Shown here piece after piece: positions 6,313 to 25,067 of a stretch of DNA of 36,388 bases; positions within the stretch are counted from its first letter, which is position 1, and each line of letters starts with the position of its first letter. This DNA comes from Candidatus Hydrogenedentota bacterium. Lineage in GTDB: Bacteria > Hydrogenedentota > Hydrogenedentia > Hydrogenedentales > SLHB01. The stretch is from contig JAIBAQ010000045.1 in the NCBI GenBank assembly GCA_019695095.1, positions 1 through 36,388 on the forward strand, given 5' to 3'. The notes under the pieces are model-generated. The model ran no database searches, had not been told where the DNA came from, and worked only from the letters and a program-made list of their open reading frames with translations. Made by a program: the position numbers and the translations under genes.

Positions 6313-6621
6313 TTATTCTTCGGGAAACGATACTTCTGCGTCCCGCGCCGCATGCAGCACGCGAATGATTTCGATTGTGTGCGTGCCCGTCTCGCGGTAG
6401 TAGATCACGTACCTCGCAATCGGAAAACTGCGCAGACCTTGCGTGATCTCGTTTCGATTCCTGCCTATGGATGGGTTCTGCGAGAGCATTCGGCACTGTT
6501 GCAGAAGACGCGTTATGAATCGCTCCGCCGCGCGAGGTTTGTCTGATGCGATGAAGTCGCGGATGGACTCAATATCATTTGCCGCTTGGCGCGATAGTGA
6601 GAAACTACTCGTATACGACAT
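6313..6621 (-). CDS. parE: ParE-like toxin (RelE/ParE superfamily)
   Basis: The 102-residue protein has the RelE/ParE fold pattern: an N-terminal strand (YTSSFSLS), two helices rich in charged residues (AANDIESIRDFI...AERFITRLL), then GRNRNEI..GLRSFPIARYVIYY and IEIIRVLHAARD. The RSFPIxxYVIYYR segment and the closing VLHAARD are typical of ParE toxins, which poison DNA gyrase. Its start overlaps the antitoxin gene by 17 nt, so translation is probably coupled. It converges on the exported oxidoreductase, with 9 nt between stops. Confidence 0.85.
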   Translation of the reverse strand: MSYTSSFSLSRQAANDIESIRDFIASDKPRAAERFITRLLQQCRMLSQNPSIGRNRNEITQGLRSFPIARYVIYYRETGTHTIEIIRVLHAARDAEVSFPEE

Positions 6622-6874
6622 TCGACTGCTCTGCTACACGGGCGCGCAAGTGTTCAAAAAACGCCTCTCCATCCAGTGTTTCACCCCGGTCCGCCTGTTC
6701 GATGCCTATGGCGATTTCTTTTCGGAGAGACTCGAGCTTGATGGCCTGAAGCTGATCGTGATCTTGGAGCAAGCGCAGGGCCTCGCGCATGACTTCGCTC
6801 GCAGAAGAATACCGCCCCGACGCCACCTTTTCTTGGATGTATGCTTCGAGTTCAGGAGTGAGCGACACGTTCAT
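6605..6874 (-). CDS. parD: ParD-like ribbon-helix-helix antitoxin
   Basis: The 89-residue protein begins MNVSLTPELEAYIQEKVASG, a ParD N-terminal ribbon-helix-helix. SSASEVMREALRLLQ forms the second helix, and a charged C-terminal half probably wraps the toxin. It lies directly upstream of parE in the usual antitoxin-first order. The frame stays open to 6931, but the ATG at 6874 has a GAAGAGGG ribosome binding site and begins the conserved domain. ParD proteins normally repress their own operon; candidate operator sequences lie at 6947-6981. Confidence 0.87.
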   Translation of the reverse strand: MNVSLTPELEAYIQEKVASGRYSSASEVMREALRLLQDHDQLQAIKLESLRKEIAIGIEQADRGETLDGEAFFEHLRARVAEQSNVVYE

Positions 6875-6896
6875 GGCTGGACCCTCTTCAATAGGA

Positions 6897-6919
6897 GCGC
6901 CTGCCCCGAAGGCAGGCGC
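6897..6919 (-). other. Perfect hairpin in the parD leader
   Basis: Nine-bp arms GCGCCTGCC (6897-6905) and GGCAGGCGC (6911-6919) enclose a 5-nt loop. On the parDE transcript it would sit just upstream of the parD ribosome binding site. There is no T-run on the minus side, so it is not a standard terminator for the upstream gene. It may be an attenuating or stabilising structure. Confidence 0.5.
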
Positions 6920-6946
6920 TTTAACCGACACTTCCCGATTTCAGCG

Positions 6947-22834: not shown

Positions 22835-22930
22835 TTGAGTTGAGCAGTAGTATTCCGCTATACTTGTGGCGCAAGGGTTTCTGGTGACCATTTTGGTCAA
22901 TAACGGATTTAGTGAAGGAGAAGTTTGCTC
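22835..22930 (+). promoter_or_regulatory. Promoter and 5'-UTR of microprotein gene 1
   Basis: TTGAGT (22835-22840), an 18-nt spacer and TATACT (22859-22864) form a sigma-70-like promoter. The UTR carries a small hairpin TGACC-5 nt-GGTCA (22885-22899) and an AAGGAGA ribosome binding site. The same arrangement recurs before microprotein 2. Confidence 0.6.
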
Positions 22931-23068
22931 ATGCGTCATATCAAGACCCTGACAAAGACATCGACACCCGCGCTCGCAGGAAGCGGCCTCAGCGGCTGCT
23001 ATGAGTACTTGTTGTCGGGTGATTTTTCGAGCTTCTGGAACTGCAAAGTGGGCGTCAAGTACGTCTAG
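22931..23068 (+). CDS. 45-residue microprotein 1 (unknown family)
   Basis: A 45-residue protein too short for usual gene calls. It shares with the next gene the N-terminal pattern MRHIKxLxKxSxPAxAG, then CxxYLLxGDxSxFxxCK, with cysteines at 23 and 38 in both. About 23 of 44 positions are identical and most other changes are conservative (T/S, L/I, E/D), supporting real coding. No known family is recognised. There is no obvious signal peptide; the N-terminus is basic. Possible roles are a peptide precursor, a small redox or metal-binding protein, or a regulator. No modification enzyme is adjacent. Confidence 0.75.
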   Translation: MRHIKTLTKTSTPALAGSGLSGCYEYLLSGDFSSFWNCKVGVKYV

Positions 23069-23189
23069 TCACCAAAGTGAGCGTTGTTCGAGGTCGCTCT
23101 GAAACTGTTGTTTTAGGGCGGCCTGTCATTTTGTCATGCGGGCGGCTGCCGGCATAACGCGCCCGTTTCTGCTGCACAATCCCTGTGGA

Positions 23190-23280
23190 TTGACTCTGCG
23201 CGAAATTTCTGAGTAGGCTTCGCGCGCAAGGAATCTGGTGACCTCAACGGTCAAAACAAATGCTGTGAAGGAGAGTGTTC
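23190..23280 (+). promoter_or_regulatory. Promoter and 5'-UTR of microprotein gene 2
   Basis: TTGACT (23190-23195), an 18-nt spacer and TAGGCT (23214-23219), with CGCAAGG following as in copy 1. The hairpin TGACC-5 nt-GGTCA (23237-23251) has the same arms and loop length as copy 1 but a different loop sequence. AAGGAGA precedes the ATG. Confidence 0.55.
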
Positions 23281-23415
23281 ATGCGTCACATCAAGAATTT
23301 GTCCAAGGTATCAATGCCAGCGATAGCAGGGCCATCGCCCAGCAGTTGTCTTGATTACCTTTTGGCGGGCGACCTGTCCACGTTCAAAGAATGCAAAGCG
23401 GACAAGAACCACTAA
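23281..23415 (+). CDS. 44-residue microprotein 2 (paralogue of microprotein 1)
   Basis: The 44-residue product matches microprotein 1 end to end without gaps. Cysteines 23 and 38, YLL (26-28), GD (30-31) and Phe35 are conserved. The C-terminal tail after CK is variable and polar (ADKNH). The promoter, UTR and gene were evidently duplicated together. A strong terminator follows, so the two genes form a self-contained unit between the glycosidase and the leucine operon. Function is not known. Confidence 0.75.
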   Translation: MRHIKNLSKVSMPAIAGPSPSSCLDYLLAGDLSTFKECKADKNH

Positions 23416-23435
23416 TCGTCAGATTGTAGCTTCCT

Positions 23436-23480
23436 CGTCGCCGTTTCGCGGGAATGCCTGCGGGACGGCGACGTCTTTTC
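23436..23480 (+). terminator. Rho-independent terminator after microprotein 2
   Basis: Arms CGTCGCCGT (23436-23444) and ACGGCGACG (23465-23473) pair perfectly. An inner GCGGG/CCTGC stem extends the hairpin, and TCTTTTC follows. Confidence 0.8.
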
Positions 23481-23556: not shown

Positions 23557-23579
23557 TTCTGCAACTTTGGAAACGGTGT

Positions 23580-23666
23580 ATGTGTAATTCGATGCAGTTA
23601 ACGGGCTTGCTACTCCCACTCCTCCTCGTGGAGGAAGGCGGGCTCGTTGTGCCTCGAATTATCTAA
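23580..23666 (+). CDS. Leucine-rich leader peptide (leuL-like)
   Basis: The 28-residue peptide has 8 leucines, including LLL at 10-12 and LLL at 14-16, plus three Val and two Ile. The LTGLLL core recalls the enterobacterial leu leader peptide. Codons CTC-CTC-CTC form one arm of a hairpin TCCTCC/GGAGGA (23620-23625/23630-23635). A later segment (23649-23655) can pair with the left arm of the terminator (23692-23699) with one bulge, giving an antiterminator. A ribosome stalled for leucyl-tRNA would therefore favour read-through into leuA. It has no other function expected of it. Confidence 0.82.
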   Translation: MCNSMQLTGLLLPLLLVEEGGLVVPRII

Positions 23667-23691
23667 TCAATAACCGGCAACGGTTCAGATA

Positions 23692-23729
23692 GAGGCCACG
23701 GGCCCAGGCCCGTGGCCTCATTGTTTTTT
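23692..23729 (+). terminator. Attenuator terminator upstream of leuA
   Basis: A near-perfect palindrome with 13-nt arms (23692-23704 and 23707-23719, top of stem forming the loop) is followed by TTGTTTTTT (23721-23729). It lies 25 nt after the leader peptide stop and about 190 nt before leuA. Confidence 0.9.
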
Positions 23730-23774
23730 CCGGCAAGTATTTGGTTCAACCGCGCGCCAGACGGCGATGCAAGG

Positions 23775-23921: not shown

Positions 23922-25067
23922 ATGACTAAGCACGTGCGATTTTTCGATACCACGATGCGCGACGGCGAACAGACGCCGGGCGTGCACATTACCGCCGATC
24001 AGAAAGTTGAGATTGCCCAAGCCCTGGAAGCCTTTGGCGTTGCGACCGTCGAGGCGGGTTTCCCGGCGTCGTCGCCTGGAGACTTTGCGGCGGTGGAGCG
24101 CGTCGCGGAGACGGTGCGGCGTTGCGAGGTGGCGGCGCTGGCCCGCTGTGTGCCCGGCGACATCGAGGCGGTAGCGCGCGCGCTGGAGCACGCCGTTCAC
24201 CCGGTTATCCATGTCTTTCTGGGAGTCTCCGATGTCCACCTGACCCGGAAGCTGGGCATCACCCGATCCGACGCGATCCGGACCATTGAAACCTGCGTTC
24301 AACAAGCGCGGCAGTATTGCGAGCGCGTGCAGTTCAGCGCGGAGGATGCCACGCGCACGGACCGGATCTTCCTGCGTCAATGCATCGAGACGGCCATCAC
24401 GGCCGGCGCTTCCCGGGTCAACATCCCTGACACCGTCGGCTATGCCATGCCGCACGAATACGGCGATTTGATCGCCGAGGTCGTGCGCTTCGTGGAGGGC
24501 CGGGCCATCGTGTCCGCTCACTGCCACGACGACATGGGCATGGCGACGGCGAATTCTGTTGCCGCGGTTGAAGCAGGGGCACGCCAGGTGGAAGTCACGG
24601 TGAACGGAATCGGCGAGCGCGCAGGCAATGCATCCGCTGAGCAGGTGGCCGTCGTTCTGGCGTTGAAGGCGGTGGCCGAATCGGGTGTGGACCTGTCGCG
24701 CATCACGGCCATCAGCAGGAGGGTGGCGGAGGTCACGGGCGTGCCGATTCAACCCAACACGCCTATCGTCGGCGCGAACGCTTTCGCGCATGCCTCCGGA
24801 ATTCACCAGGACGGAATCATCAAGGACCCGGAAAACTACGAGTTTGTCCCTCCCACGTTGGTGGGTGCGCCGGGACACAAGTTTGTGTTTACGGCACGGT
24901 CCGGGCGCAGGGCCATTGCGCATCGCGCCGCCGCGATGGGACGTCCGCTGGACGCGAGGACGGTCGATGCGGTCTACCGGGATTTTCTGCAAGTAGCCGA
25001 GCAGCGCCGGGGCGAAGTGCCCGATGAGGAGATCGCGGCGATGATTCAGCGGGCCGCCTGTGTGTAG
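23922..25067 (+). CDS. leuA: 2-isopropylmalate synthase-like enzyme without regulatory domain
   Basis: The 381-residue protein is a DRE-TIM aldolase-like enzyme. DTTMRDGEQTPGV (residues 9-21) is the first signature; the metal-binding HCHDDMGMA and the GIGERAGNA signature follow. It condenses acetyl-CoA with a 2-oxo acid. Length equals the catalytic and linker parts only: the C-terminal LeuA allosteric domain (total ~510 residues in standard enzymes) is missing, as in NifV homocitrate synthases. The leucine attenuator upstream argues for 2-isopropylmalate synthase and leucine synthesis rather than homocitrate. AAGGAGA precedes the ATG. It converges on an exported hydrolase gene with 18 nt between. 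Confidence 0.82.
   Translation: MTKHVRFFDTTMRDGEQTPGVHITADQKVEIAQALEAFGVATVEAGFPASSPGDFAAVERVAETVRRCEVAALARCVPGDIEAVARALEHAVHPVIHVFLGVSDVHLTRKLGITRSDAIRTIETCVQQARQYCERVQFSAEDATRTDRIFLRQCIETAITAGASRVNIPDTVGYAMPHEYGDLIAEVVRFVEGRAIVSAHCHDDMGMATANSVAAVEAGARQVEVTVNGIGERAGNASAEQVAVVLALKAVAESGVDLSRITAISRRVAEVTGVPIQPNTPIVGANAFAHASGIHQDGIIKDPENYEFVPPTLVGAPGHKFVFTARSGRRAIAHRAAAMGRPLDARTVDAVYRDFLQVAEQRRGEVPDEEIAAMIQRAACV

Follow-up and report, generated by a model that had tools for sequence, protein, structure and literature searches.

Prochlorosins and synechococsins combine one conserved leader (ProcA/SyncA) with diverse cores, and their precursor genes, some in tandem and others dispersed across the genome with unrelated neighbors, are served by one promiscuous enzyme, ProcM/SyncM (PMC10783134). 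In Bacillus, the SKF (skfABCEFGH) and epipeptide EPE (epeXEPAB) systems consist of a precursor, a maturase of the radical-SAM family, a membrane or putative protease, and an ABC transporter (PMC8172795, PMC12871923), with EpeP being an M50 metalloprotease (PMC10885120). GNATs of RiPP pathways acylate side chains or N termini, and those encoded beside the precursor genes of selidamides and nostolysamides acylate lysine or ornithine side chains (PMC13060382). In the structure of CteB, residues -1 to -18 of the CteA leader are bound via the RRE (PMC6231123).

The DNA analyzed here (the window) is a stretch of 36,388 nucleotides from Candidatus Hydrogenedentota (order Hydrogenedentales), a group represented in this analysis through MAGs alone. 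Its source genome, G000, is a 6.77-Mb MAG of 405 contigs that is 95% complete. Two short tandem ORFs in the window, A and B, are probably dispersed ("orphan") precursors belonging to a Hydrogenedentota-specific, RiPP-like system, with a leader read by a machine encoded on contig C70 of the same genome. As in the prochlorosins, the Hydrogenedentota peptides comprise many dispersed precursors with one leader and diverse cores. Unlike the prochlorosins, they belong to another phylum, their leader is about 17 rather than about 60 residues long, their cores are not lanthipeptide-like, and the operon associated with them has no LanM-type synthetase. Among the members scanned against NCBIfam and Pfam, none significantly matched a Nif11/NHLP leader, the type carried by selidamides and nostolysamides, which are lanthipeptides; the placement of GNAT genes beside precursor genes is common to both systems. 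The SPASM protein of the operon resembles CteB over most of its length, including a PqqD-like N terminus, but it lacks the CxxxCxxC motif and bears a C-terminal GNAT-like extension, and the cores do not have the six cysteines in 45 residues of SCIFF peptides. The operon logic is that of SKF and EPE, with a protease and an ABC transporter present, but the Hydrogenedentota system has two to three GNATs, a pseudo-radical-SAM protein, several precursors per operon and many dispersed ones, and a CPBP/Rce1-type protease rather than one of the EpeP type. The SKF/epipeptide set of radical SAM enzyme, protease, and ABC transporter is incomplete in this operon, as the radical-SAM motif is missing. Because GNAT acylation and scattered precursors are known in other RiPPs, every element of the system has a precedent; their combination has none in the literature searched, and searches of open-license papers found no account of such a system in Hydrogenedentota. 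We call it RiPP-like, and place it outside every named class, because modification is only predicted and a radical-SAM maturase is absent.

The ORF pair and its flanking elements

ORF A (45 aa, 22931..23068, sequence MRHIKTLTKTSTPALAG followed by SGLSGCYEYLLSGDFSSFWNCKVGVKYV) and ORF B (44 aa, 23281..23415, sequence MRHIKNLSKVSMPAIAG followed by PSPSSCLDYLLAGDLSTFKECKADKNH) lie on the plus strand, as do all elements of the two units described below, and are too short for most gene finders. They align without gaps at 23 identical residues of 44, compared with a maximum of 12 in 20,000 shuffles, and both have cysteines at positions 23 and 38. Their divergence is of the coding type, with a pS of 0.66, a pN of 0.30, and a dN/dS of about 0.24 (Nei-Gojobori, NG86), and their differences by codon position (15/12/23) are in excess at the third; this signal disappears when the pair is read in either of the other frames. 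The coordinates, the alignment, and the purifying-type differences, which are confined to the claimed frame, all agree with the original prediction, made from the letters alone. Neither ORF has a significant match in Pfam, NCBIfam, or PDB, in keeping with the prediction that they belong to no recognized family, and the window region has no match in Rfam. AlphaFold2 models based on the two-sequence alignment give the N-terminal leader segment low confidence (block mean pLDDT, 52-56) and fold the core of ORF B into two short helices, at residues 24-28 and 32-41 (block mean pLDDT, 79-82).

The core of this type can be written as C-X14/15-C, or "CLxYLLxxGDxSxFxxC," and amounts to six members in three genomes. 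Outside the window, it occurs on contig C67 of G000, in a tandem pair on contig C412 of G024, and on contig C4 of G004. Homologues in relatives had been named in advance as decisive, with their absence, or the presence of frameshifts and stops, counting against the genes; the search recovered them, and their reading frames are all intact. The G024/G004 pair likewise differs in a coding-type manner (pN, 0.30; pS, 0.83), and the third copy on C67, along with the homologues in two further genomes, bears out the suggestion that the genes are multicopy. ORFs A and B are real coding genes. No conserved neighborhood was seen at the four sites (C45 and C67 of G000, C412 of G024, and C4 of G004), where the genes sit between unrelated genes, and no maturation gene occurs near the window pair.

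Each ORF is flanked by a similar series of elements, most of which had been predicted. A promoter-like site precedes both, although the two differ in strength: that of unit A (TTGAGT-N18-TATACT, 22835..22864) was found by a scan and agrees with the consensus at 9 of 12 positions (shuffle mean, 0.2), whereas that of unit B (TTGACT-N18-TAGGCT, 23190..23219) is weak, visible by eye and below the scan threshold. The CGCAAGG block (22870..22876 in unit A and 23225..23231 in unit B) and the Shine-Dalgarno sequence AAGGAGA (22915..22921, 9 nt ahead of the ATG of ORF A, and 23268..23274 ahead of ORF B) are present in both units, as expected. Between them lies an inverted repeat, CTGGTGACC-N5-GGTCA (22881..22899 and 23235..23253), whose 5-bp arms, TGACC-N5-GGTCA, occur at only two sites in a genome-wide pattern search, both in the window. 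These arms had been interpreted as a 5'-UTR hairpin; the repeat itself is confirmed in both units, but its fold as RNA is no better than that of shuffled sequences (z = 0.2 and -0.7); it is not a stable RNA hairpin and could equally be an operator. The terminator predicted to close the pair is present after ORF B (23436..23473), but a second terminator-like hairpin follows ORF A (23091..23124; both from a scan), so that termination is not a property of the pair alone. Four 5'-UTR blocks, CGCAAGG, TCTGGTGACC, GGTCAA, and GTGAAGGAGA, are kept between the units despite near-saturated synonymous sites, suggesting that the blocks are under selection.

The CGCAAGG block also occurs upstream of both members of a tandem leader-peptide pair on contig C9 of G000 (L064 8885 and L064 9050). 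It may be a regulatory element shared by the two pairs, or its recurrence may be due to chance.

A leader family and its operon in Hydrogenedentota

In profile searches, the first 16 to 17 residues of the window ORFs (MRHIKxLxKxSxPAxAG over residues 1-17; 22931..22981 in ORF A and 23281..23331 in ORF B) recur on many short ORFs with unrelated C termini. About 190 such ORFs have in common the N-terminal motif MKHxxxxSKxxxPAxA, with the consensus M-[KR]-H-[VIL]-[KR]-x-[IVL]-[ST]-[KR]-x(1-4)-P-A-x-A, in which the histidine at position 3 is not independent evidence because it was used in the extraction filter. The leader profile A3 (109 rows, 18 positions; cutoff, E ≤ 0.02) has matches in 60 of the 68 genomes of the order, including 13 in G000, and in 0 of 184 genomes of other groups. 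Single-linkage clustering of the sequence after residue 17 divides the 190 distinct members from the fetched loci into 75 core clusters, 49 of which are singletons. The leaders are nearly as similar between core clusters as within them (45% versus 52% identity over the first 10 aa), and a Shine-Dalgarno sequence precedes 127 of 195 members, as opposed to 4.1% of background ATGs.

One leader with some 75 core clusters is the arrangement of conserved leader and variable core expected of RiPPs. Most of the cores have no common modifiable residue, and some, such as those of the RADAFxxFxNAxWRAW type, look better conserved than their own leaders, unlike typical variable RiPP cores. Cysteines, of which the window ORFs have two, are few or lacking in most members; the leader, and not the two cysteines, is the defining feature of the family. 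The window-type core was considered as a key to the family and rejected on account of its six members in three genomes, the leader being the wider feature. The original prediction had placed its emphasis on the cysteine pair and the 5'-UTR hairpin, both of which are particulars of one core type. With regard to function, its suggestion of peptide precursors is strengthened by the third same-type copy, by the homologues in two other genomes, and by at least 13 leader-sharing ORFs in this genome, while nothing came to light in support of small regulators. The leader family is missing from Pfam and NCBIfam, probably owing to the very short length of its ORFs, and its MKH leader would offer a search key to hidden genes in Hydrogenedentota genomes.

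Neighbor clustering, followed by a second round of locus retrieval, uncovered a conserved operon headed by leader peptides, with the order peptides-GNAT-GNAT-CPBP-ABC-ABC-SPASM, in more than 20 genomes of several families. Its leader peptides number from two to six, and one of them very often has the core RADAFxxFxNAxWRAWxxFxxxKKNE. The copy on contig C70 of G000 (L224) encodes two peptides, GNAT1, an extra GNAT, GNAT2, the CPBP protease, both ABC proteins, and the SPASM protein. The ABC genes specify an ATPase and then a permease, and the CPBP/Rce1-type protease (Pfam, E = 1e-12) has conserved EExxxR and His motifs; from the presence of these genes, removal of the leader and export of the peptide are predicted. 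Precursors thus lie beside maturation and export genes in the family as a whole; the window pair is not adjacent to such genes.

The SPASM protein, about 600 residues long (6787-8709 of L224 on C70 in G000), occurs in 62 of the 68 genomes of the order and in 0 of the 184 others, usually as a single-copy gene and in some cases split across contigs. Its residues 5-410 align to residues 6-421 of CteB (PDB 5WGG; E = 1.9e-17), and its C terminus is GNAT-like (1NSL; E = 0.0035). It scores 38.5 bits against the NCBIfam SPASM domain TIGR04085 (cutoff, 27), and falls under the NCBIfam cutoffs for the QhpD, SCIFF, and Nif11 maturases. A PqqD-like/RRE domain is indicated by homology alone, through the CteB alignment and a weak N-terminal match to RumMC. 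In 18 of 18 orthologues checked, the radical-SAM CxxxCxxC motif is absent and a SPASM CxxCWA-type motif ending in CGG is present; 17 of the 18 have a CxCxxC motif (mostly CFCFEC) in the PqqD-like part, which does not belong to the canonical radical-SAM motif. An active radical SAM maturase was therefore rejected, as CxxxCxxC is missing.

Members of the leader family also occur in other gene contexts. In three genera, including contig C14 of G000, a leader peptide is encoded inside a sulfate-uptake operon (L066 6277, L163 6950, and L197 6537) made up of a porin, the leader peptide, a sulfate-binding protein, and CysT/CysW/CysA-like proteins. At 11 loci (L076, L077, L153, L155, L158, L161, L167, L171, L178, L184, and L199), up to three leader peptides with recurring core types lie directly 3' of a large anti-sigma-like gene, which adjoins an ECF sigma factor where this was checked (L077). 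A further core, LLILxLxxFFxxWxNxxxVxxNLxKFYxKT (L079, L152, L159, L183, L194, and L205), is found near genes for apparent PilC-type pilus/type II secretion proteins or peptidyl-prolyl isomerases. Members placed among sulfate-uptake genes or next to an ECF sigma factor hint at roles that may extend beyond one natural product.

Proposed recognition of the dispersed pair and competing readings

Scored with a leader model built only from the operon peptides of other genomes, ORF A (16.9 bits) exceeds all 3,482 background ORFs (maximum, 14.6), and ORF B (13.9 bits) exceeds their 99.9th percentile (10.9) but not the top background score. Leader and SPASM protein co-occur within the order, with 58 genomes having both, 4 the SPASM protein only, 2 the leader only, and 4 neither (P = 0.0012, Fisher exact test, uncorrected for phylogeny, the genomes with neither being one family). 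Of the two leader-only cases, G027 encodes its peptide next to GltD at the end of a contig, a position where another genome carries the operon, and the genome of G057 is 60% complete. By analogy, the shared segment matches the 18-residue CteA leader in size. Resemblance of a leader this short could not, by itself, prove recognition.

These observations are consistent with a pathway in which residues 1-17 would be the leader and residues 18-44/45 a short core that contains two cysteines and is probably helical. The single CteB-like SPASM protein, encoded on C70 in G000, would bind the leader through its PqqD-like N-terminal domain, after which the peptide would be modified by the GNAT domains and/or the SPASM module, with the GNATs suggesting acylation. 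The CPBP-type intramembrane protease would then cleave close to PAxA, where the leader ends, and the ABC transporter encoded with it would export the peptide. More tentatively, and with the balance of probability somewhat against it, one pseudo-radical-SAM protein (PqqD-like domain, degenerate radical-SAM barrel, SPASM, and GNAT), together with the GNATs, the CPBP protease, and the ABC exporter, might process dozens of scattered precursors whose cores are unrelated, forming a phylum-defining RiPP-like class and a general peptide-acylation/secretion pathway rather than a single natural-product cluster. A large peptide family and a conserved CteB-homologue machine without the radical motif would together constitute a new route of peptide modification and export and a source of new chemistry. 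The peptide/SPASM system would also provide testable candidates for the role of a pseudo-radical-SAM/SPASM protein.

The most serious alternative, which we regard as unlikely though deserving of weight, is that the shared N terminus acts as a signal for the sorting or docking of small proteins that stay unmodified (of the membrane or envelope, or subunits of complexes), with the operon being either one client of this signal or a path of export that involves no RiPP chemistry. This reading stays alive because the SPASM protein has no radical-SAM motif, several cores, including those of the operon, are strongly conserved, and members lie within the sulfate-uptake operon and beside ECF sigma/anti-sigma genes; the cores, moreover, are very diverse, and many are hydrophobic or helical. 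Against a sorting signal stand the size of the leader, which is that of an RRE-binding segment, the union of a CteB homologue with a PqqD-like N terminus, a protease, and an ABC transporter in one peptide-headed operon, and the phylogenetic limits that leader and SPASM protein share.

It is improbable that the pair encodes stand-alone small regulators or toxic peptides unlinked to the C70 operon, with the likeness of the leader reflecting shared ancestry only. Such independence accords with the makeup of each unit (a promoter-like site, a unique inverted repeat that is a possible operator, and a terminator), with the tandem layout that recurs on C412 of G024, and with the absence of maturation genes from the neighborhood, but the leader is kept across about 75 core clusters whatever the core type, which is hard to explain without common selection on the leader itself. 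That A and B are chance ORFs inside a duplicated noncoding element, as might be supposed from UTR blocks that are also conserved between the units, has a negligible probability, being refuted by the frame-specific dN/dS, with its coding-type substitutions, and by distant homologues with intact frames, and being at odds with the Shine-Dalgarno sites and the order-wide leader profile.

Other genes in the window

Downstream of the pair, a Leu-rich short ORF (MCNSMQLTGLLLPLLLVEEGGLVVPRII) lies within 23577-23740, upstream of a LeuA-like gene at 23922-25067. It is followed by a very strong terminator at 23692-23719 (fold z = -5.8) and then by ATTGTTTTTT, and from its sequence the region 23577-23740 looks like a leucine attenuator. 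The LeuA-like synthase is closest to proteins encoded by MAGs of Candidatus Hydrogenedentota, with identities of 67, 65, and 58%. At 6313-6931, two overlapping genes on the minus strand have, judged by eye from their translations, the look of a ParE/ParD-type toxin-antitoxin pair.
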